Of a stretch of 64,000 nucleotides of DNA, positions 30,324 through 39,042 are shown piece by piece. Source of the stretch: Variovorax sp. PBL-E5 (GTDB taxonomy: Bacteria; Pseudomonadota; Gammaproteobacteria; Burkholderiales; Burkholderiaceae_C); assembly GCF_901827185.1 (NCBI RefSeq), contig NZ_LR594671.1, positions 5,574,001 through 5,638,000 on the forward strand. Direction: 5' to 3'. Position 1 is the stretch's first letter. Each line of letters begins with the position of its first letter. The translations under genes were made by a program, and so were the position numbers. Below the pieces are notes generated by a model, which did not search any database, was not told the DNA's origin, and saw nothing but the letters and a program-made list of their open reading frames with translations.

Positions 30324-31087
30324 CCACCTGGATCCTGCTGCGCGGCCTGACGCGCGAGAGCGGCCATTGGGGCGCCTTTGCCGAGACGCTGCGCGCGCGG
30401 CTCGCCGACGCGCGCGTGCTGACGCTCGACCTGCCCGGCGCCGGCGGGCTCCATCGTCTGCGCAGCCCGGCGGACATCGAGGCCACGACGCAGCACTGCC
30501 GCCAGCAGCTGGCGGCGCTGGCGGTCGAGCCGCCCTTCCATCTGCTGGCCATGTCGCTGGGCGCGATGGCGGCGGCGGACTGGGCCGTGCGGTGGCCCGG
30601 CGAGCTGGCCGGCTGCGTGCTGATCAACACCAGCCTGCGTCCCTTCAATCCCTGGTACCAGCGCCTGCGGCCGGCCAACTATGCGGCGCTGCTCGGACTC
30701 GCGTTCGTGCCCCAGGCGAGCCGCCCCCGCGAGCAAACCATCCTGCGACTGACCAGCCGGCACCTGGATGCGCAGACCGGCGCGGCCGTCGTCGATGCGT
30801 GGACGGCGTTGCGCGATGCGCGGCCCGTGTCGCGCGCCAACGCGCTGCGCCAGCTGCTTGCGGCCATGCGCTATCGCGCGCCGGCGCGGGCGCCGGCCGT
30901 GCCCCTGCTGGTGCTCGCGAGCCGGCGCGATGCGCTGGTCGATGCGCGCTGCTCGCAACGGCTGGCGCGGCAGTGGCACGCCGACTTCGTCGAACATCCC
31001 TCCGCCGGTCATGACCTCGCGCTCGACGATGGACCCTGGCTCGCCGACCAGGTCGCGCGCTGGTCTCAGCGCAAGGGCATGAGCTGA
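30320..31087 (+). CDS. Alpha/beta hydrolase
   Basis: 255-residue hydrolase of the alpha/beta fold. The nucleophile elbow is LAMSLGAMAAA (Ser about residue 77), weaker than the usual GxSxG because the first Gly is Ala; the acid is likely Asp in SRRDALVD and the His in SAGHDLALDD. The opening WILLRGLTRESGHWGAF supplies the oxyanion region. Substrate unknown. It overlaps the M14 gene start-to-stop by 4 bases, so the two are coupled; its 3' end overlaps the convergent YgjP-like gene by 22 bases. Confidence 0.85.
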   Translation: MTTWILLRGLTRESGHWGAFAETLRARLADARVLTLDLPGAGGLHRLRSPADIEATTQHCRQQLAALAVEPPFHLLAMSLGAMAAADWAVRWPGELAGCVLINTSLRPFNPWYQRLRPANYAALLGLAFVPQASRPREQTILRLTSRHLDAQTGAAVVDAWTALRDARPVSRANALRQLLAAMRYRAPARAPAVPLLVLASRRDALVDARCSQRLARQWHADFVEHPSAGHDLALDDGPWLADQVARWSQRKGMS

Positions 31088-31809
31088 TCGACCAGGCCGT
31101 CCAGCCGCTTCTTCACTTCGCGCCAGCCCGGCATGCAGGCATCGAGCAGCCGATGGAAACGCGGTCCGTGGTGGTGCTCCTTCAAGTGGCACAGCTCGTG
31201 AAGGATCACGTAGTCGATGCATTCGCGCGGCGCCTTCACCAGGTGCGGATTCAGCGTCAGGCGGCCGGCGGGCGAGCAATTGCCCCACTGCCGCCGCATG
31301 GCCCGAAGACGAACCGCCGGCAGTGCGTGCACCCAGCGCAACGGCGCGGCGACGGCCGCCAGGCGCGAGGCCATCACCTCGCGGGCACGCAGCGCATACC
31401 AGGCATCGAGCATCGCATGCACCTGCGCCGCATCGGGCCGTGCCGCGGCGACCTCGATGTGGGCGCCGCGCATGCGCACGCTGCCGTGGCGCGGCGCATC
31501 GGCCACGACCTTGAGCTGATAGCGCCGGCCCAGGTAGAGCAAGGATTCGCCGCTGACATGCTCGCGCGCCGGGGCGCTGTCCAGGCGTTGCCGGATGTCT
31601 GCCACGCGCTGACTGATCCAGGCCGCACGCTGCCGCACCGCGGCGATGACGGCCGTGTCGTCGGCATCCTGCGGCGCATCGACGACCACGCTGCCATCGG
31701 GCTCGACATGGATCGCGATGCGCCGCGCCTTGCGCGCGGGCTGCGTGCGGACGCGAAAGCGGATCAGCTCGTCGCCGTAGCGAAAGCTGCGCGAGGACGG
31801 CGCGTTCAT
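31066..31809 (-). CDS. YgjP-like zinc metallopeptidase (SprT/WLM-like), last gene of the R-M operon
   Basis: 247-residue predicted metalloprotease. The N-terminal about 120 residues include RYQLKVVADAPRHGSVR; the C-terminal catalytic domain contains the zinc motif ILHELCHLKEHHHGPRFH (about 196-213), with HExxH ligands and the downstream His, plus the family marker RWGNCSP-like RRQWGNCSPAGRL. YgjP proteins are often encoded next to type I restriction genes, and one idea is that they process or control HsdR, as ClpXP does elsewhere; that is inference. Its ATG (31807-31809) overlaps the hsdR stop, so it is translationally coupled to hsdR. Confidence 0.88.
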   Translation of the reverse strand: MNAPSSRSFRYGDELIRFRVRTQPARKARRIAIHVEPDGSVVVDAPQDADDTAVIAAVRQRAAWISQRVADIRQRLDSAPAREHVSGESLLYLGRRYQLKVVADAPRHGSVRMRGAHIEVAAARPDAAQVHAMLDAWYALRAREVMASRLAAVAAPLRWVHALPAVRLRAMRRQWGNCSPAGRLTLNPHLVKAPRECIDYVILHELCHLKEHHHGPRFHRLLDACMPGWREVKKRLDGLVDQLMPLR

Positions 31810-34800
31810 CCGCGCCGGCTCAGGCCGACCCGCGTGATGTGCAGCACTTGCGTCACCACCTCGCCCGCCTTCTCGAGCCCGAGCGTGCCGTAGAGCAGCG
31901 TCAGCAAGCTCTTGCGAATGGCGGCCTCGATGCTCTGCGCGCTCAGCGAATGCTCGGCCACCGCGCGCTGCACGGCCTGGCCGATGGCCAAGGCATGGTC
32001 GACGTACAGGCCACGCTCTGCGGCACTCAAGCCGTTCGATGCGCTGTCGCCCAGTGCCATCAGGATCGCGCCGAAATAGGCGCGCGCCTGCGGGTTCGTC
32101 GCCAGCGCCTCGGGCAGGCCCGGCGTGGCGCGCTCCTCCACCAGGCGCTCGAACTCGCTGAACAGCGCGTACTGCTTGCGCGGACAGTCGAACATGGCCT
32201 CGGCCTGGGCGATCGCGTCGCTCAGCAACTCCGAGAACACCTTCTGCGCATAGGGGTCGTCGGCCAGATCCTGCTCGATGGTCATGCGCAGGCGAGTCTT
32301 GATGAGATCGGCCTCGTTGCGCGTCTTCTCGTCGGACCATCCATCACCGGCCGGTACATCGCCGAGACTGTGGATCGCGAACACGCCGAGGGGTTCGCGC
32401 ACCTCGACGCCGAGCACCTGCGTGTCGACCAGCTTGGCGATCTGCGCTTCGTACGCGCTGTAGTCGACCGTCTCCATTGCATCGCGCCGCGCGGTCTGCC
32501 GCACGTCGACCAGAAAACGCAGATCCTGCTTGTAGCGCGCGATCAGCGCTTCCGAAAAACTCCGGTCTTCGAAGAAGCTGTGCGATGACAACGCAGTCTG
32601 CAGGCACAGGCCGAAGGCCGTGACCGCCGCCGAGAAATCATCGCGCAGCTTCTGGCGCGCGTCGTACGGTCCGCCCGGCGCGTCGGCTGCGATGCGCGGG
32701 CTCAATGCTTGCCGGAGTTGCTCGGGGTCGTCGCGGTTCGCCACGTCCTTGAAGAAGGCCCACATGGCCTCGTGCAGTGCCGGCAATCGCTTGTATTCGG
32801 TGCTGACCTCGCGATAAAGGCCTTCGAGGTCGGCGGCGTCGAAGCCGCCTTGGGTACGCGCCTCGAGATCCTGGTAGGCGCGGATCGCCGTGTCCAGTTC
32901 TTTCAGAATGCCCCGGTAGTCGACCAACAGGCCATGGCACTTGGCATCGTGCAGCCGGTTCACACGCGCCACCGCCTGGATCAGGTTGTGCCCTTTGAGC
33001 GGCTTGTCGATGTAGAGCACCGCGTTGCGCGGCTCGTCGAAACCCGTGAGCAGGCGATCGACCACGATCAGCAGATCGGGGTCACCGGCCGAAGCGAATG
33101 CCTCCAGCGCACGGCGCTCGTACTGGGTTGCGTCCTCGCCGCCGTTCAAGACATTCTGCTTCCACCACTTCTGCACCTCGGGCATCGCGTCTTCGTCGAC
33201 TTCGGTGTTGCCTTCGCGCGTGTCGGGTGGCGAAATCACCACCCTGCTGCTGACGAGGCCGGTGGCGTCGAGCGCCTTCTTGTAGCGGATGGCGTCACGC
33301 TTGCTCGCGGTGGCGACCTGACCTTTCAGGCCCGGCTTGATCTTCTTGAAATTGGCGTTGAAATGCGTGGCGATGTCCCACGCGATCAACTCGATGCGAT
33401 TCGCTGCGCCATAGATGGCACCGCGACTCGCGTATTTGCCCTTCAGGTCGGCGCGCTGCGCCGCCGTGAGCCCGGCCGTGATCCTGTCGAACCAGCGGTC
33501 GACGGCTTCCGAGTTGATGACCAGTTCGGGAACGCGCTCCTCGTAGAGCAAGGGCGCGACCGACTGGTCCTCCACCGCGCGCTGCATCGTGTAGGCGTGC
33601 ACGATGGGACCGAACTTGTTCGCGGTCTTGTCATCCTTCAGCAGCGGCGTGCCGGTGAAGGCCACGCAGGCCGCGCGCGGCAATGCCTTCTTCATGCGCT
33701 CGTGCGTTTCGCCGCCATGGCTGCGATGGCCTTCGTCCACCAGCACGATGATGTCGGCAGCGTCGTTGCGGCACTCGGCCAGCTTCGACGCCGTGTTGAA
33801 CTTCTGGACCAGCGCGAAGCTGATGCGCTCGGTGCCCTGCCCGATGCGCCGCGCCAGGTCGCGTCCCGTGACGGCCTTGCTGCGCTCGCCTTCCTTCTGC
33901 GTCGCGACGGTCGAACCGAAGGCGCCGCTGGTCACGAAGTTGCGCGCCAGCTGCTGTTCGAGATCGAGTCGGTCGGTGACCACGATCACGCGGCAGGCCT
34001 TCAGTTCTTCGTGCAGCAACAGCGCCTTGGAGAGAAAGACCATGGTGAAGCTCTTGCCCGAACCCGTGGTGTGCCAGATCACGCCGCCTTCGCGCGCACC
34101 GCCGGGCCGCAAGGAAGCGAGCCGCTCGAGCAGCGAACGCACGCCGAAGAACTGCGGGTGGCGTGCGACGATCTTGCCCACGTGGCGGTCGAACAGAATG
34201 AAGCCGCGCAACAGTTCGAGCAGCCGCGACGGCGTGAGCAGGCTCACCAGCAATCGGTCCTGCGCGTTGGGCGGCATGGGCAGCGACCAGAGCGACTCGA
34301 ACCACTCGCGCAAGGCCACGGGCTTTCCTTCGAACAGGGCGGCATGCGTGGCCGCGGACAGCGGCGCGTTCTTGAGCGCACGCACCTGCGCGTCGTCGAA
34401 TTCCTCTTCCTTGTTCCAGCGCGCCCAGAACTTGGCCGGCGTGCGCGTGGTGCCGTAGCGGCCCTCGGTCTGGCTGATCGACAGCAGCAGTTGCGCATAG
34501 GCAAACAGATGCGGCACCTCGTCGTCGCGCTGGTTGCGCAGATGCTGGCTGATGCCTTCGAGCATCATCGCATCGCCGCTGCGCCGCGGACCGTGGGGCT
34601 GCTTGGCCTCGATCACCACCAGCGGGATGCCGTTGACGTAGCCGACGATGTCGGGCGCGCGATGGTGCGTGCCCTGGCTGGACAGCACGCGCAGTTCTTC
34701 GGTGATGTCGAAGCGATTGCGCGTGGCGTCGGCCCAGTCGATGATCGGCACCGTGGGCTGATGCTTCTTGCCGTCGGGCATGAACTCGGTGACCGTGATG

Positions 34801-35108
34801 CCGAACGCGAGCCTGGCGTAGAGGCGCTCATTGGCCGCCAGCAAGCCATCGCCCAGGCCGAGCGTGGACAACTCGCGCAGGATCTGTTCGATGGCGCTCG
34901 GGGACAGCGGATACGACTTGCCCTTGTAGTCGAAGCGGCGCGTGTGCAGGACTTCGACCAGGCGCGGCCTGATCAGCACTTCGCGCGTGCCGTCTCGCAT
35001 CGCGAGGCACTCGGCCGCACTCAGGTAGCGCCACCCCAGGTTGCAGAGCATGTGCAGCGCTGAAATCCGGGCGCTGCATTGCTCGTGGGCGGGCGGCATT
35101 GCGCTCAT
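31806..35108 (-). CDS. hsdR: Type I restriction endonuclease subunit R
   Basis: 1100-residue motor/nuclease subunit, the usual size. The N-terminal PD-(D/E)xK nuclease is intact: D153 in APDIVGYVNG and E167-x-K169 in VVIEAKQ. The translocase follows with Walker A TTGSGKS (347-353), DEGH box (458-461), and motif VI QAVARVNRLHD further on; the C-terminal helical domain should bind HsdM. It cuts unmethylated foreign DNA after ATP-driven translocation. ATG at 35108 overlaps the stop of the downstream half-hsdS by 4 bases (ATGA); another in-frame ATG at 35099 is possible. No frameshift or missing motif was seen, so the subunit looks functional. Confidence 0.95.
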   Translation of the reverse strand: MSAMPPAHEQCSARISALHMLCNLGWRYLSAAECLAMRDGTREVLIRPRLVEVLHTRRFDYKGKSYPLSPSAIEQILRELSTLGLGDGLLAANERLYARLAFGITVTEFMPDGKKHQPTVPIIDWADATRNRFDITEELRVLSSQGTHHRAPDIVGYVNGIPLVVIEAKQPHGPRRSGDAMMLEGISQHLRNQRDDEVPHLFAYAQLLLSISQTEGRYGTTRTPAKFWARWNKEEEFDDAQVRALKNAPLSAATHAALFEGKPVALREWFESLWSLPMPPNAQDRLLVSLLTPSRLLELLRGFILFDRHVGKIVARHPQFFGVRSLLERLASLRPGGAREGGVIWHTTGSGKSFTMVFLSKALLLHEELKACRVIVVTDRLDLEQQLARNFVTSGAFGSTVATQKEGERSKAVTGRDLARRIGQGTERISFALVQKFNTASKLAECRNDAADIIVLVDEGHRSHGGETHERMKKALPRAACVAFTGTPLLKDDKTANKFGPIVHAYTMQRAVEDQSVAPLLYEERVPELVINSEAVDRWFDRITAGLTAAQRADLKGKYASRGAIYGAANRIELIAWDIATHFNANFKKIKPGLKGQVATASKRDAIRYKKALDATGLVSSRVVISPPDTREGNTEVDEDAMPEVQKWWKQNVLNGGEDATQYERRALEAFASAGDPDLLIVVDRLLTGFDEPRNAVLYIDKPLKGHNLIQAVARVNRLHDAKCHGLLVDYRGILKELDTAIRAYQDLEARTQGGFDAADLEGLYREVSTEYKRLPALHEAMWAFFKDVANRDDPEQLRQALSPRIAADAPGGPYDARQKLRDDFSAAVTAFGLCLQTALSSHSFFEDRSFSEALIARYKQDLRFLVDVRQTARRDAMETVDYSAYEAQIAKLVDTQVLGVEVREPLGVFAIHSLGDVPAGDGWSDEKTRNEADLIKTRLRMTIEQDLADDPYAQKVFSELLSDAIAQAEAMFDCPRKQYALFSEFERLVEERATPGLPEALATNPQARAYFGAILMALGDSASNGLSAAERGLYVDHALAIGQAVQRAVAEHSLSAQSIEAAIRKSLLTLLYGTLGLEKAGEVVTQVLHITRVGLSRRG

Positions 35109-35797
35109 GCTGCGTCCATGGGTTCTTTGTGTCTTACGGAAACGCGGCGCGTTCCAGTCAGCAGATCCGCCATCAGTGCGTTCTTCTCGGCATGAAGCTT
35201 GTCGATCAAGCGCTCGGTATTGACGAGTGCGCGATCCCAGGTCGCAAGAATTCTTGCGATCCGGCGCTGTTCGGGCAGCGGCGGAAAAGCAAAGGGAAGG
35301 TCCTTCAGAAGCTGGGTGTCGAGGCGTCCAGTTCCATGGCCAGCCGTGTCGACCATCTGCAGGATCTCGCGCTTGTTCGCGAGCAATTGGTACGCAAGAA
35401 ACGACGCGTCCAGATCCGATGCGGGAATCAGCGCTTTGACATCCTGGTTGAAGGCCATCTCCCGTTCTGCGATGCAAACGGGCAGGTCTTTGAACAAGGT
35501 CATCCCACGCGTCAGAACCAGGACGGATTGTGCCGGCGCCACGGCTGCGACAGCCTTGCCCAGTTCGCTGATGCGACGCGCAGTGCTGTCGATTCGAAGC
35601 GCTTTCATGTCTCGCGCGGTCACCCATGGAAACTCGCCGGACCAGAATGCTGCGTTGTTCAGGCTCGGCGTGCTGCCCGACATGAAGCCGGCGCATTCAC
35701 CCAACGGCTTGCATTGCCAGCCAACTGGAAGCGCCGCCTGGCCTTTCGTCGTTGGCAAGGTATCGCGACCCTTCGAGTTCGAGCGGCGGTCCTTCAT
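35105..35797 (-). CDS. hsdS: Type I specificity subunit, half-size (one TRD)
   Basis: 230-residue HsdS-type protein. It holds a single target recognition domain (LPVGWQCKPLGECAGFMSG, WVTARDMKALRIDS, VLVLTRGMTLFKD, AFNQDVKALIP) followed by one conserved spacer region (PPLPEQRRIARILATWD) and a coiled-coil-like tail (ALVNTERLIDKLHAEKNALM). Normal HsdS (about 400 residues) has two TRDs and two spacers, so this is half. Truncated HsdS proteins are known to dimerise into working specificity subunits. A second half-hsdS sits on the other side of hsdM. Base composition is lower in GC than the neighbouring genes, suggesting acquisition. Coupled to hsdR by a 4-base overlap. Confidence 0.9.
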   Translation of the reverse strand: MKDRRSNSKGRDTLPTTKGQAALPVGWQCKPLGECAGFMSGSTPSLNNAAFWSGEFPWVTARDMKALRIDSTARRISELGKAVAAVAPAQSVLVLTRGMTLFKDLPVCIAEREMAFNQDVKALIPASDLDASFLAYQLLANKREILQMVDTAGHGTGRLDTQLLKDLPFAFPPLPEQRRIARILATWDRALVNTERLIDKLHAEKNALMADLLTGTRRVSVRHKEPMDAA

Positions 35798-35809
35798 GAC
35801 GATCGATTC

Positions 35810-37324
35810 CTACTCATAGCCAAGTTCCTTCAAGTAGACGGCCATCTCTTCCTCGATCCCGACCCATTCTTTCTTGAGCTCCACTCTCTCGCGCCGCACT
35901 TCGGACATGTCGACGCTCATTGCTGACGCGGCACTATCGACATAGCGAGAGATATTGAGATTGAACTCGTGTCCTGCGATCGTCTCCAGCGCCACCAGCG
36001 TCGCGTACTTTTCTACTGGCAGACGTGCAGCATAGGTAGTCAGCATTCGCTGCAAATCTTCCTCGCGCAGCGCGTTCTGGTTCTTGCCCGGCTGGAAGCT
36101 GCGACTCGCATCGATGAAAAGTACGCTGTCATCCGGCTTGTTCTTGCGAAAGACCAGCACCGCGGCCGGAATGCTCGTCCCGTAGAAGAGCTTTTCGGGA
36201 ATGCCGATGACCGCATCGACCAGGTTTTCTTCAATGAGCTTCTGGCGAATCCGCCCTTCCGCGCCACCGCGAAACAACACGCCGTGGGGCACCACGACCG
36301 CCATGCGCCCGCTGCCCGCCTTCATGGTCTCGATCATGTGCAGGATGAAGGCGAAATCGCCTTTGGTGCGCGGCGGCACGCCGCGACGGAAGCGGCTGAA
36401 CCTGTCGGTCTCCGCGCTTTCATGGCCCCACTTCTCCAGACTGAACGGCGGATTCGCGACCACGATGTCGAAGTGCCGCAGGCTGGTGTCGCTCGCCAGC
36501 AGCTTGGGATTGCGGATGGTGTCGCCCCACTCCACGCGATGGTTGTCCTCGCCGTGCAGGAACATGTTCATCTTGGCCAGCGCCCAGGTGCTGCCGATGG
36601 CTTCCTGCCCGTAGAGCGCATAGCGGCGCGAGCCGGTACGCTCGCGGATCAGGCGGCCGCATTTCAGCAGCAGGGAGCCGGAGCCGCAGGTCGGGTCGCA
36701 GATTTCTTCGCCCTCTTTCGGATCCATGAGCCGCGCCATCAGCTCCGAGACTTCCGGCGGCGTGTAGAACTCGCCGGCCTTCTTGCCGCTCGTCGACGCG
36801 AAGTTCTTGATGAGGTATTCGTAGGCATTGCCGATGACGTCGAGCGTGCCGACGCGGCTCGGGCTGAGGTCGAGTTCGGGCTTGGCGAAGTCCTCGAGCA
36901 GGTGGCGCAGGATGTCGTTCTTCTGTTGTTCGTCGCCGAGCTTGTTGGCGTTGAAGCTGATGTCCTGGAAGACGTCGCGCAGCTTGGCGATGTTGGCGTC
37001 TTCGATGGCGTGCAAGGCCTTGTCGATGCGCTCGCCGCTGCCGGGTTCGAAGCGCGCCTTGTACAGCGCATAGAAGCTGGCGCGTGGCGGCAGCACGAAG
37101 CGCTCGGTCTTGAGCAGTTCCTCGATGAGGCCGGGCTCGGCGTGGGCGTATTCCTTCTTGTAGCTGTCGTAGTGGTCCTGCCAGACGTCCGACACGTACT
37201 TGAGGAAGAGCATGGTGAGGACGTAGTCCTTGTAGATGCTCGAGTCGACGGTGCCGCGGAAGGTGTCGCAGGCGGCCCAGACGGCGGCGTTGATGCTTTC
37301 CTGGCTGATGCGGGTCTGATTCAT
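35810..37324 (-). CDS. hsdM: Type I DNA methyltransferase subunit M
   Basis: 504-residue N6-adenine methyltransferase. The N-terminal HsdM helical domain (about 8-150, YKDYVLTMLFLKYVSD) precedes the methylase core with SAM motif DPTCGSGSLL (210-219) and catalytic motif NPPF (291-294). The C-terminal tail contains a predicted coiled coil (VRRERVELKKEWVGIEEEM) for S-subunit contact. It methylates the recognition site and forms part of the restriction complex. ATG at 37324. Spacing to both half-hsdS genes is 12-16 bases, so all belong to one operon. All key residues are present. Confidence 0.95.
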   Translation of the reverse strand: MNQTRISQESINAAVWAACDTFRGTVDSSIYKDYVLTMLFLKYVSDVWQDHYDSYKKEYAHAEPGLIEELLKTERFVLPPRASFYALYKARFEPGSGERIDKALHAIEDANIAKLRDVFQDISFNANKLGDEQQKNDILRHLLEDFAKPELDLSPSRVGTLDVIGNAYEYLIKNFASTSGKKAGEFYTPPEVSELMARLMDPKEGEEICDPTCGSGSLLLKCGRLIRERTGSRRYALYGQEAIGSTWALAKMNMFLHGEDNHRVEWGDTIRNPKLLASDTSLRHFDIVVANPPFSLEKWGHESAETDRFSRFRRGVPPRTKGDFAFILHMIETMKAGSGRMAVVVPHGVLFRGGAEGRIRQKLIEENLVDAVIGIPEKLFYGTSIPAAVLVFRKNKPDDSVLFIDASRSFQPGKNQNALREEDLQRMLTTYAARLPVEKYATLVALETIAGHEFNLNISRYVDSAASAMSVDMSEVRRERVELKKEWVGIEEEMAVYLKELGYE

Positions 37325-37340
37325 GAATTTCCCTGAGGTC

Positions 37341-37952
37341 TTATGAATGGCCCGAAGCGCTGACCAGCGCTTCGGCCATGGATTCGAACATGCTGTCGCG
37401 GTTGCGGATCAAGCGCTCGTAGAGGCGCTGTTCGCTCCGGGCGAGACGGGCCAGCTCGACGACGCGCGCCTGGTCGGCGAGCGGGGGCACGCTGACGCGC
37501 AGCGCCTCGAGCACCGGCCGGCGCACGCTCAGCTGGCTCGAACCCTCCGCGGCGCGCCTGAGCGCGCGCTGGAAGGGCGCCCGGTTGATCTGCCAGGCGA
37601 GAAAGCCCGCCAGCAGCGCGCTGCCCGGCTTCATGCGAAGGTGGAACAGGTGCGGTCCGCAGACGGCGCCCTGCGGCGGCGCATCGAGGCAGATGGCATA
37701 GAAGCGCGTGCCGCGCGAGACGAACAGCACATCGTCCGGCAGCAGCCAGTCGGCCTTGCCGCGGCCGCCGAGCCGCGTGCGGGTGACGCGGTCCCAGTGG
37801 ACGCCATCGAGCGGATCCATGTCCTTCATCTGAACGGCCCGCACGGGTCCGTCCTGCACTTCGTCGATGGGCCCGCGGAAGGGGTAGCCCGCATGCACGA
37901 ACGCGGCCGCACCCAGCGAAATTTCAAATGCATGAACGAACATGATGCACAT
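37341..37952 (-). CDS. hsdS: Type I specificity subunit, second half-size copy (one TRD)
   Basis: 203-residue HsdS-like protein, first gene of the operon. One TRD is visible (AGYPFRGPIDE, VRAVQMKDMDPLDGVHWD, DWLLPDDVLFVSRG, HLFHLRMKPGSALLAGFLAW) followed by the spacer signature SSQLSVRRPVLEALRVSVPPLADQARVVELARL and a short helix. It is divergent in sequence from the half-HsdS at 35105, so the two TRDs should read different half-sites. Start is uncertain: ATG at 37952, ATG at 37943 and TTG at 37964 are all possible, and no strong RBS is seen. The most probable product is a heterodimer with the other half, giving a bipartite recognition site; homodimers would read palindromes. Confidence 0.83.
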   Translation of the reverse strand: MCIMFVHAFEISLGAAAFVHAGYPFRGPIDEVQDGPVRAVQMKDMDPLDGVHWDRVTRTRLGGRGKADWLLPDDVLFVSRGTRFYAICLDAPPQGAVCGPHLFHLRMKPGSALLAGFLAWQINRAPFQRALRRAAEGSSQLSVRRPVLEALRVSVPPLADQARVVELARLARSEQRLYERLIRNRDSMFESMAEALVSASGHS

Positions 37953-38025
37953 GCTAACTTGCAAAGTGGCAGCGCTTCACGCAAACTCAGATTGCGAATA
38001 AATAGCATCAAACGATGTGATGCAC
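37943..38025. promoter_or_regulatory. Divergent control region of R-M operon and MBL gene
   Basis: AT-richer spacer with a direct repeat TGATGCAC (37943-37950 and 38018-38025) and an inverted repeat GCATCA / TGATGC (38005-38010, 38018-38023, 7-base spacer) overlapping the second copy. One copy is at the start of the half-hsdS gene and the other just before the RBS of the metallo-beta-lactamase-fold gene. No regulator gene is linked, so the binding protein is unknown; transcription control of both sides is inference. Confidence 0.45.
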
Positions 38026-38043: not shown

Positions 38044-39042
38044 ATGGGCTATGAAGTGGACCTGCTGTCGTCCGCAAGCGGCGGCGGCGCGCTTTGCGTG
38101 CGATGGGGCCTGCCGGGAAATTACAAGGTGCTGGTCTACGACGGCGGCACGGCGGAATCGGGCGAGCGCCTGGTCGCGCACATCGAATCCAACTATCTGA
38201 GCTCGCGGGTGGACTATGTCGTGAGTTCCCATCCCGACAGCGAGCACACGGCCGGGCTGGCGGTGGTGCTGCGCCGGCTGCAGGTCGGCGCGTTGTGGAT
38301 GCATCGGCCCTGGACGCGTTCGGCGGCGCTGCGCGACAAGCTGCGCAGCGCCTTCCGCCTGGAAGAACTGGCCGGCCGCGGCAACATCCCGGTCCATGAG
38401 CCGTTCAAGGGCGCGCGCATCGGTCCGTTCGTGGTGCTGTCGCCAAACGAGCAGCACTACGTCGATGGGCTGCTGCCGGGCTTCGGTCAATCGCCGAGGC
38501 GCGCCGCGGCCTCCCGGCCTGCCGATCCCGGCGCGTTCTTTCTGAAGATGAAGGAATGGGCCGGCGGCCCCTGGCGCTTCGAGGCGCTGCCGAACGATGC
38601 GGTCACCAGCGCGAAGAACGATGCCAGTGCCGTGCTCTATGCCAGCTTCGGCGGCAACGGGGTGCTGCTGACCGGCACGGCCGGGATCGGGGCGCTCTCG
38701 GCAGCGGCGCACTACGCCGAACGCCTGGGCATCCATCTGCCGTCGAGGCTGCGCTTCCTGCAGGTGCCCAACCATGGCCATCCCGGCAACGTGTCGACCG
38801 AGGTGCTGGACCGCATCGTCGGGGTGCGCGTGGCGAAGGAGGAGCGCTGCTACACCAAGACCGCCTTCGTCTCGGTGAGCCGCGATGCGCCGCAAGGCGC
38901 GGAACGGGTGGTGGCGGACGCGCTGGCGCGCCGCGGCGCGCTGACCTTCGCCACCCGCGGCGCGAGCCTTTATCACGGGCATGGCATGCCTGCGCGCAGA
39001 TGGCGCACGGCCCGGCCCGCGCGAAACACCAATACGGCTTAA
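38044..39042 (+). CDS. Metallo-beta-lactamase-fold protein, ComEC-C-terminal-like
   Basis: 332-residue predicted cytosolic hydrolase of the MBL fold, most like the C-terminal domain of ComEC/Rec2. The metal motif SSHPDSEHTAGL (61-72) keeps H63, D65 and H68 but has Glu67 where Asp is usual. Later motifs are altered: LLTGTAG instead of LLTGDAG, and VPNHGHPGN instead of VPHHGS. Reduced or changed metal binding is therefore likely; the reaction is unknown (nuclease or binding role are both possible). AGGAGG at 38031-38036 fixes the ATG at 38044. It diverges from the type I R-M operon and is followed by a small monooxygenase after 32 bases. Confidence 0.8.
   Translation: MGYEVDLLSSASGGGALCVRWGLPGNYKVLVYDGGTAESGERLVAHIESNYLSSRVDYVVSSHPDSEHTAGLAVVLRRLQVGALWMHRPWTRSAALRDKLRSAFRLEELAGRGNIPVHEPFKGARIGPFVVLSPNEQHYVDGLLPGFGQSPRRAAASRPADPGAFFLKMKEWAGGPWRFEALPNDAVTSAKNDASAVLYASFGGNGVLLTGTAGIGALSAAAHYAERLGIHLPSRLRFLQVPNHGHPGNVSTEVLDRIVGVRVAKEERCYTKTAFVSVSRDAPQGAERVVADALARRGALTFATRGASLYHGHGMPARRWRTARPARNTNTA

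Follow-up and report, generated by a model that had tools for sequence, protein, structure and literature searches.

The operon and its genes

The window, as the whole stretch of DNA analysed here is called, comprises 64,000 nt of Variovorax sp. PBL-E5 (GCF_901827185.1, NZ_LR594671.1 positions 5,574,001-5,638,000, forward strand). On its minus strand lies a Type I operon in the order S1 (below also sS), hsdM, S2, hsdR and a gene for a YgjP-type metalloprotease, and all five frames are open (Table 1). An earlier, sequence-only reading had described single-TRD genes of about 203 and 230 residues on the two sides of hsdM, with hsdM and hsdR both intact, and the frames and domain matches bear this out. 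The YgjP-type gene (31809-31066) lies within the stretch covered by that reading, which did not mention it.

Table 1. Genes and candidate operator sites of the sS operon region, in window coordinates.
Feature	Position	Strand	Description
YgjP/SprT-like metalloprotease	31066..31809	-	usual last gene in operons of the sS type
hsdR	31806..35108	-	1100 aa, intact; HSDR_N, SWI2/SNF2, T1R_D3-like and TIGR00348 over cut-off
S2	35105..35797	-	half-size HsdS, 230 aa, one TRD, one helix; PF01420 59 bits
hsdM	35810..37324	-	504 aa, intact; HsdM_N, N6_Mtase and TIGR00497 over cut-off
sS (S1)	37341..37943	-	single-TRD HsdS-like, first in operon; start ATG 37943 (200 aa) likeliest
Operator-like O2	37930..37948	-	GCATCA-TGTTCGT-TCATGC, 11/12 match, over sS start codon
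Putative operator O1	38005..38023	-	GCATCA-CATCGTT-TGATGC, between sS and divergent MBL gene
Metallo-beta-lactamase-fold (MBL) gene	38044..39042	+	divergent from sS; PDC-M48B match

The translation of hsdM contains DPTCGSGS and NPPF in addition to the HsdM_N and N6_Mtase domains that mark a Type I methylase subunit, and HsdR has the nuclease N-domain and motor of a Type I enzyme. The hsdR start overlaps the stop of S2 (ATGA). For sS, starts at 37952 (203 aa) and 37964 (207 aa) are alternatives to 37943, which is favoured by alignment with two relatives, L004 (MPIHA..) and L036 (MIDA..). Compared with L004, dN/dS is about 0.13 for hsdM and about 0.18 for hsdR; sS has a dN of 0.23 and a dS of 0.88 (dN/dS about 0.26). 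Judged by these rates, all three genes are under purifying selection.

Two single-TRD proteins of different origin

The two-TRD HsdS of a Type I system is absent from the window, where S2 has a single TRD in 230 aa. In alignments with full HsdS, S2 matches TRD1 and its tail matches the C-terminus, so that it looks like a full HsdS from which TRD2 was deleted between the conserved repeats. The operon had been described as different from the usual truncated-HsdS leftovers; with this apparent derivation of S2 by internal deletion from the normal HsdS of the operon, part of it comes closer to a reduced HsdS than that description allowed. A single TRD, linked to a conserved helix for dimerisation, gives S2 the form of a half-HsdS of the delta50/NgoAV kind, and it has kept its frame, TRD, helix and the stop/start overlap with hsdR. 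If it works, S2 would be expected to act as a homodimer on a palindrome other than that of sS.

A Pfam search of S1 gave no match. Residues 23-195 match the PADLOC model Specificity_I PDLC03199 (7.7e-15), and the AlphaFold model (pLDDT 91) consists of one TRD and one long helix. In structural comparison it comes closest to chains of Esub1 and HsdS, with Esub1 (PDB 8vsq, 8vsr) at 16% identity. Aligned over 205 columns, S1 and S2 share 25% identity, in agreement with the dissimilar TRDs noted earlier. Both are single-TRD proteins of the S type and each could homodimerise on a palindrome; that part of the earlier proposal stands, whereas their description as two halves of one HsdS is not supported. 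From the comparisons below, sS is a separate conserved single-TRD family that includes S1, and S1 is very unlikely to be one part of a divided HsdS.

Relatives of sS

Relatives were collected at 61 sS loci, many of which are related, so that locus counts overstate independence; L043, L258 and L259 are marginal members (<100 bits). The first genome set used 9 of 23 matching genomes, own included (13 others were weak TRD matches); G269 (L044) and a second match in G294 (L045) were dropped, having no sS under the profile. The second set had 14 new genomes and our own, with 18 weaker or partial matches left out and G578 (L076) lacking a usable frame; the third had 15 new genomes together with our own and G294, and the partial G835 was left out. 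From plasmids, 15 records chosen for spread were taken from matching sets of 39 and 57. A search of viral contigs for sS gave one locus, L232; viral pattern matches, many probably due to chance, were excluded from the counts.

Operons of this type are widespread and read sS-hsdM-[cargo]-hsdS-[cargo]-hsdR-YgjP, with sS in first place. A full-size HsdS (356-491 aa in relatives) lies beside sS in 39/61 loci, the architecture of 16/61 could not be read, and full-size HsdS also accompanies sS in all eight loci found through HsdM alone. Since these relatives coexist with a full-size HsdS, S1 appears dispensable for completing one. Among the sS and HsdM-anchored loci, a half-size HsdS in the order sS-M-half S was seen in the window only.

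Furthermore, sS and its neighbour evolve differently. Of 25 operon pairs that share 57-97% identity in the sS TRD, 23 have no more than 31% identity over the initial 150 residues of HsdS; by this comparison the sS TRD is conserved where neighbouring HsdS TRDs are swapped. Three loci (L004, L005 and L246) have sS, M and R with no HsdS between M and R, so that sS may also be capable of serving simply as a specificity subunit.

Palindromes in the sS promoter region

O1 lies about 80 bp upstream of sS. The motif GCATCA-N7-TGATGC occurs once in the window, against 0.01 expected, and once in the 7.09 Mb genome. O1 is also 21-39 nt upstream of the ATG of the divergent MBL gene, which for this reason may share regulation. 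A site at the position of O2 is exact in six other loci (L037, L038, L046, L232, L260 and L295).

The same motif recurs in other genomes. Of the 61 loci, 17 have an exact GCATCA-N7-TGATGC upstream of sS; dinucleotide shuffles give a mean of 0.015. Eleven other sS genomes contain it 1-3 times each, in 10 of them at the sS start region. More generally, a perfect A-N7-T palindrome with 5-bp arms was found upstream of sS in 36/61 loci versus 3.8% of 797 control windows, which were taken upstream of all open frames of at least 200 aa, many of them probably not genes, and contain G+C-ended palindromes more often than those of sS. In an independent test that deliberately set aside the 26 loci whose sites are GCAYCA-like or compensated, 13 of the remaining 35 still had A-N7-T (1.93 expected), which stands out there among the 28 spacing-by-base combinations tested.

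What varies is the half-site (GCACCA, CACTA, CTGTA), for the most part between sS clades; the spacing of 7 bp and the A are constant. For example, CACTA half-sites occur in one clade and CTGTA in another, and in some variants both arms have changed together. The perfect palindrome is missing from 25 of the 61 sS windows, and some sS clades have no A-N7-T palindrome or use something else. One of the eight HsdM-anchored loci (L297) has no site of 10/12 or better, and in Acetobacteraceae, where sS TRDs are 61-83% identical, the site reads GCATGA in some cases and GCACCA in others, and elsewhere none was found.

Promoter scans of the window found none. Of the 36 loci with a site, 23 had a scored promoter and 13, including the window, had none. 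The O1 site lies upstream of, overlapping or downstream of the scored promoter, with no uniform promoter-to-site arrangement. A by-eye placement of the -35 element inside O1 in Methylococcales was not borne out by promoter scoring.

Comparison with known systems

Half-size HsdS proteins that act as homodimers are described for EcoR124I HsdS(delta50), for EcoDXXI deletions and for the natural NgoAV, and are reported to have palindromic bipartite targets with 7 or 8 nt between the methylated A (PMC3874165). The site given for the EcoR124I half-S mutant is GAA-N7-TTC (PMC3874165), and the 7 bp between the two A positions of the sS site equal the spacing of EcoR124I and this mutant. S2 and sS have one TRD like these proteins and would share with them a palindromic bipartite target. 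As described there, such homodimers replace HsdS, whereas sS occurs in addition to HsdS, and a site that would fit it lies in the promoter region of its gene. Type 1 1/2 methyltransferases such as M.AhdI (2M+2S; PMC3874165) resemble the M2-sS2 stoichiometry that would be expected here; they are presented as relatives of Type II systems (PMC3874165), whereas the sS operon has HsdR and a separate HsdS.

Autogenous control through operators in the own promoter, as proposed below for sS, is described for the C proteins of Type II systems (PMC3874152, PMC12707154). C proteins are helix-turn-helix proteins, unlike the sS model of TRD plus one helix; as to operators, the candidate O1/O2 pair is present and the promoter scan of the window is empty. 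RptR is described as a 79-aa alpha-helical repressor of its own promoter that binds TAGCTA repeats, in an island that carries a Type I system with DarTG2 and M48 (PMC12255303). In that account RptR, like sS, is the first gene of a Type I operon ending in an M48-type metallopeptidase gene. In contrast to this helical protein and its repeats, sS is a 200-aa TRD protein with a candidate bipartite 19-bp site, and inspection by eye of the intergenic sequence showed no TAGCTA.

A model for sS and its alternatives

We consider it probable, at roughly 0.65, that an sS homodimer, probably with HsdM, binds the two operators and autoregulates the operon, while S2 does the restriction targeting. The sS homodimer, probably with two HsdM, would recognise a palindrome of two half-sites 7 bp apart; on O1 and O2 in the promoter region it would control the operon, and within each half-site it may methylate the A that adjoins the spacer. 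Together with the ordinary HsdS, whose gene lies between hsdM and hsdR, HsdM and HsdR would restrict and modify other DNA. In the window, where this HsdS is without its second TRD, an S2 homodimer would use a different palindrome, if it works. Gene order, conservation, the sites and their statistics are what we observe; that sS binds these sites, partners HsdM and methylates, in which direction it regulates, and that S2 is active are what we infer.

This reading is supported by the separateness of sS, additional to HsdS and with its TRD fixed; by the enriched promoter palindrome, whose half-site largely tracks the sS clade; by a site geometry equal to that of EcoR124I and its half-S mutant; by purifying selection on sS; and by the RptR repressor in the same operon slot. 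Counting against it are the windows and loci that have no site, close sS relatives with differing sites, and the lack of a window promoter and of a uniform promoter-to-site layout. The six-base half-site is also longer than usual, 3-4 bases being the common length. A more specific version, which we put forward tentatively, is that sS and HsdM together make up a second methyltransferase, invariant in specificity and directed mainly at the two operators in the sS promoter region, so that promoter methylation would report the sufficiency of HsdM in an incoming operon and time HsdR expression. If this were true, a specificity subunit would have turned into a self-reading epigenetic controller, its operator co-diverging with its TRD across Pseudomonadota.

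The operon may instead be decaying, the window having lost the second TRD of HsdS and L004 its HsdS, with neither restricting DNA; this is compatible with sS as controller, and we regard it as unlikely though a serious contender. The internal deletion in S2 points this way, as do the three loci without HsdS between M and R, the full-size HsdS broken by frame change or insertion in L041 and L051, and the HsdR of L005, which is without about 85 residues. The open frames and purifying selection of hsdM, hsdR and sS argue against decay, as does everything that S2 has retained, and half-S proteins of its form are reported to be active (PMC3874165; PMC6158711).

Considerably less probable is that sS helps HsdM and HsdS to assemble or to remain stable, the palindrome being read by something else. 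The precedent is the staphylococcal hsdRSMS system, which as described has a short conserved single-TRD S directly upstream of hsdM and a variable long HsdS, the same contrast as in the sS family (with the long S halved in the window), and which like sS operons occurs on plasmids and other mobile elements. For S. xylosus hsdMS expressed from promoter PN25 in E. coli without hsdS_short, methylation of the motif is weak or absent, and the authors propose a stabilising role (PMC10030836). This need for hsdS_short even from a foreign promoter indicates a physical role and counts against control by sS. For these constructs, however, the study measured RNA and not protein (PMC10030836). Moreover, hsdS_short scores 31.7 bits with the sS profile, within the 22-62 bits of ordinary HsdS proteins, and hhalign gives 92.6% for the staphylococcal short S versus 92.1% for S2; by these values it does not stand apart from ordinary HsdS, and it was not taken as a proven homologue of sS. 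In the one staphylococcal locus read (L053), hsdR lies upstream of the short S, whereas in the window it lies downstream; the YgjP gene usual in sS operons does not follow, and the upstream A-N7-T palindrome is missing. A helper role also leaves the constant geometry of the promoter palindrome unexplained.

We find it very unlikely that S1 and S2 form a split HsdS, as first proposed, in which a heterodimer would read a bipartite site and the homodimers two palindromes, giving up to three specificities. Each does have one TRD and one long helix, and separate EcoDXXI HsdS halves are reported to reconstitute the wild type (PMC3874165). It was ruled out as the main reading by the coexistence of sS with full-size HsdS in 39/61 loci (and in the eight HsdM-anchored ones), to which are added the restriction of the sS-M-half S order to the window and a conserved TRD with a fitting promoter palindrome, unlike a diversifying specificity half.

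Least probable of all is that the palindromes are mRNA hairpins or host-regulator sites unrelated to sS: a stem-loop scan reports O1 as terminator-like and the palindromes would also pair in RNA, but a spacing of 7 with flanking A/T is far more enriched than any other spacing, where loops should vary, 1-3 exact sites per genome argue against a global regulator, and in the four loci with the best promoter scores (L233, L260, L261 and L266) the promoter is downstream of O1, which would place O1 outside the sS transcript, although elsewhere the best promoter candidate overlaps or precedes the site and this last argument is not general.

Significance

It has long been asked how a Type I system can enter a new cell and leave the DNA of that cell uncut. 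To our knowledge, few transcriptional controllers have been described for Type I systems, RptR being one; a C-like protein is reported as a Type I controller in Mycoplasma gallisepticum (PMC12707154). What is new here is the bipartite palindrome in the sS promoter region, and the comparisons suggest that a subunit for DNA recognition also switches the operon that encodes it. With its two half-S genes, which differ in origin, the window offers a natural test case. The specificity of TRDs is otherwise hard to predict. If sS is a controller, the sequence of the promoter palindrome would by itself reveal what each sS TRD recognises, the short 'subunit S' genes that precede hsdM would gain a role, and the family would provide both a DNA-recognition domain used as a regulator and a natural collection in which each TRD comes with its site.

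Two single-TRD genes flank hsdM

The sequence-only reading had placed two single-TRD genes on either side of hsdM, and this observation is confirmed by gene calls, profile matches and structural models (see the table). A Pfam search returned no match for S1, the first gene of the operon; a PADLOC specificity profile (208 positions) matches its residues 23-195, and its AlphaFold model contains one TRD and one 43-residue helix (pLDDT 91). The model of S2, the half-size hsdS between hsdM and hsdR, has one TRD and one helix and is less confident (pLDDT 78.6). Structural comparison of the models matched both with HsdS structures. The best structural match of S1 is ‘Esub1’ (PDB 8vsq/8vsr), which was co-crystallised with a protein named Prx, so a single-TRD protein can be bound by another protein. 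The genome, of 7,086,410 bases, has two further PF01420 places.

Coordinates of the window operon, its putative operators and disrupted genes at related loci
Feature	Location	Coordinates	Strand	Remarks
S1 (sS)	window	37943/37952-37341	minus	single-TRD gene, operon start
hsdM	window	37324-35810	minus	Pfam and NCBIfam domains above cut-offs
S2	window	35797-35105	minus	one PF01420 match
hsdR	window	35108-31806	minus	Pfam and NCBIfam domains above cut-offs
YgjP-type metalloprotease	window	31809-31066	minus	last operon gene
metallo-beta-lactamase-fold gene	window	38044-39042	divergent from operon	PADLOC PDC-M48B
O1, putative operator	window	38005-38023		GCATCA-N7-TGATGC
O2, putative operator	window	37930-37948		11/12 match, over the sS start codon
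hsdR, Vibrio plasmid	L050	12384-15681		in two frames
sS, Moellerella	L267	8929-9408		cut short next to IS1 element
hsdS, Aeromonas	L051	11183-14985		split by insertion
hsdS	L041	12794-13932		in two frames

From its sequence, S2 appears to be a reduced HsdS. In alignments, the S2 TRD is 48% identical to TRD1 of the HsdS from locus L006, and the figure for L036 is 35%. The S2 helix opens with a sequence like the central repeat (ARILATWDRALVNTERLI) and closes with one like the C-terminal repeat and tail (EKNALMADLLTGTRRV...MDAA); this closing part aligns with the extreme C-terminus of the L036 HsdS. This pattern would be the expected remnant of recombination between two conserved repeats of one hsdS. 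The stop of S2 overlaps the start of hsdR. Single-TRD mutants are described as acting on palindromes (PMC3874165).

S1 belongs to a separate gene family

S1 is a member of a gene family of its own, here called sS. With S1 as query, reference genomes yielded seven loci, the closest in Variovorax sp. J22P240 (L004, 66% identity), where the order is sS-M-R without HsdS, and 42 bp separate the M stop from the earliest start in the R frame; other loci have a full-size HsdS after sS-M. Genome searches at order, class and phylum level matched 23 of 399 (E<=0.001), 34 of 369 (1e-10) and 18 of 398 (1e-20) genomes, weak matches being ordinary TRDs, and the set was widened further with plasmid records and one viral contig. 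Among 61 sS loci, an HsdS of 356-491 aa follows hsdM in 39 (called full-size from two matched halves where compared, and otherwise by length), a broken full-size HsdS is found in two (L041, L051), R is present with no HsdS between M and R in three (L004, L005, L246), and a half-size HsdS is found in one, the window; the architecture was not resolvable in 16. To avoid the bias of an sS-based search, the family of the window genome was also searched with HsdM. Ten of 299 genomes matched at 1e-200, and all eight new loci have the order sS-M-full-size HsdS (388-465 aa)-R-YgjP. Annotated records agree with these gene orders. The proposal that S1 and S2 are two halves of a split HsdS, giving up to three specificities, is improbable given the full-size HsdS beside sS at these 39 and eight loci.

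In L004, L005 and L246, either HsdS was lost or sS is the sole specificity subunit. Other PF01420 genes of the L004 and L005 genomes adjoin other HsdM, the L005 HsdR has an internal deletion, and L246 carries RhuM-like and Abi-like frames (named by eye) between M and R.

Judged from sequence comparison, the sS TRD also seems to behave unlike a specificity TRD. Across 25 operon pairs in four groups, identity between sS TRDs is 57-97%, and in 23 of these pairs the N-terminal 150 residues of HsdS do not exceed 31% identity (residue windows are approximate). In the exceptions, L008/L047 and L036/L038, these residues are 94% and 77% identical, and the second TRD regions 20% and 34%. Between the window and L004, the TRD part of sS is 71% identical and the remainder 50%; dN of 0.23 and dS of 0.88 for sS indicate purifying selection.

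The divergent metallo-beta-lactamase-fold gene also lies beside sS in L004, L005, L037 and L234; L046 and L047 have a hypothetical protein or metallohydrolase, then ThiF-like adenylyltransferase and patatin, or MPN/PAD-1, genes. The hsdM-hsdR interval is a cargo hot spot in L046, L047, L263, L264 and L246, and annotated cargo around hsdS includes PDDEXK nuclease, Fic, RhuM, HAD and Shedu genes.

An interrupted palindrome upstream of sS

In the window, L004 and L005, sS is preceded by the same interrupted palindrome, GCATCA-N7-TGATGC, whose spacer letters are unrelated. A single copy is present in the 64-kb window, where 0.01 would be expected, and the complete genome has no other. Eleven other sS genomes hold 1-3 copies each, one of them at the sS start region in 10 of the 11; in genome G294 the copy at the promoter deviates at one position, and the exact palindrome lies elsewhere. 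The exact GCATCA palindrome is present in 17/61 sS upstream windows and matches of at least 11/12 in 19/61; 200 shuffles that preserve dinucleotides gave a mean of 0.015 for the former and 0.1 for the latter. Many loci have a second copy about 60-75 bp further on, over the start codon, and both copies are exact in L046, L232, L260 and L295. Symmetric variants are GCACCA/TGGTGC (L052, L261, L262, and twice in L039 with spacer 6), GCAGCA/TGCTGC (L038), GCATGA/TCATGC (L048) and GCATTA/TAATGC (L266). Seven of the eight HsdM-anchored loci have a site of at least 10/12; L297 has none at 10/12 or better.

For an independent test, 26 loci with GCAYCA-like or compensated sites were removed, and in the 35 left 5-bp-arm palindromes were scored for every spacer length from 4 to 10 and each of the four bases beside the spacer. 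A-N7-T, with A beside a 7-bp spacer, was found in 13 loci against 1.93 expected, reached by 0/300 shuffles, and A-N5-T in eight against 2.08, also reached by no shuffle and partly at the same sites (L242, L248, L267). No further combination of spacer and base passed 0.01 in these 35 loci. Among the half-sites that this test brought out, five loci share CACTA, three have CTGTA (twice in L264) and L242 has CAGTA; L043, L235, L252 and L267 have one differing half-site each, which may be chance. Over the whole set, A-N7-T occurs in 36/61 sS windows; the rate in 797 control windows, taken ahead of other open frames at the same loci, is 3.8%. A perfect A-N7-T palindrome is absent from 25/61; among these, the clade of L041, L042, L236, L238 and L241 has a different inverted repeat pair upstream of sS, approximately GTAAC-N3-GTTT by eye.

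A tree of 60 sS rows places the five CACTA loci within one clade of seven (support 100/99) and the three CTGTA loci within one clade of four (100/98). GCATCA is scattered over several clades, mixed with site-free loci. In Acetobacteraceae, sS TRDs are 61-83% identical, yet the site is GCATGA, GCACCA or absent, so the coupling of TRD and site is not tight at that scale.

A possible mode of action

The palindrome adjoins sS genes of Beta-, Gamma- and Alphaproteobacteria, both chromosomal and plasmid-borne. HsdS TRDs change, and HsdM, HsdR and YgjP are not known to have a sequence-specific DNA domain of their own, so sS would be the shared product with a constant recognition domain. The 7 bp between adenines in A-N7-T would fit a TRD pair held by two helices; EcoR124I and a half-S mutant of it with the target GAA-N7-TTC are described with the same spacing (PMC3874165). 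In the systems of that review S and M do not bind DNA separately, so the site reader would likely be an M2-sS2 complex, a model that predicts methylation of the A in the site.

In L233, L260, L261 and L266 the promoter with the best score lies downstream of O1, and in L260 it lies upstream of O2; the promoter scan was inconsistent in the remaining loci and found none in the window. Repression of the operon is possible, and so is activation at low level with repression at high level, as described for C proteins (PMC12707154). The position of sS corresponds to that of RptR in a related operon type (PMC12255303); in Mycoplasma gallisepticum a C-like protein holds it (PMC12707154).

Relation to known systems

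An accessory short HsdS upstream of hsdM is reported to be conserved and expressed in staphylococci, and the long HsdS is reported to require it for methylation in E. coli (PMC10030836). This precedent limits the novelty of the gene arrangement; any link between the two short S families is hypothetical. Searches of titles and abstract starts in an open-licence library turned up neither a promoter site assigned to a half-HsdS nor the sS family of Pseudomonadota. For the window operon, two palindromic specificities are plausible, and S1 would most likely serve its own promoter.
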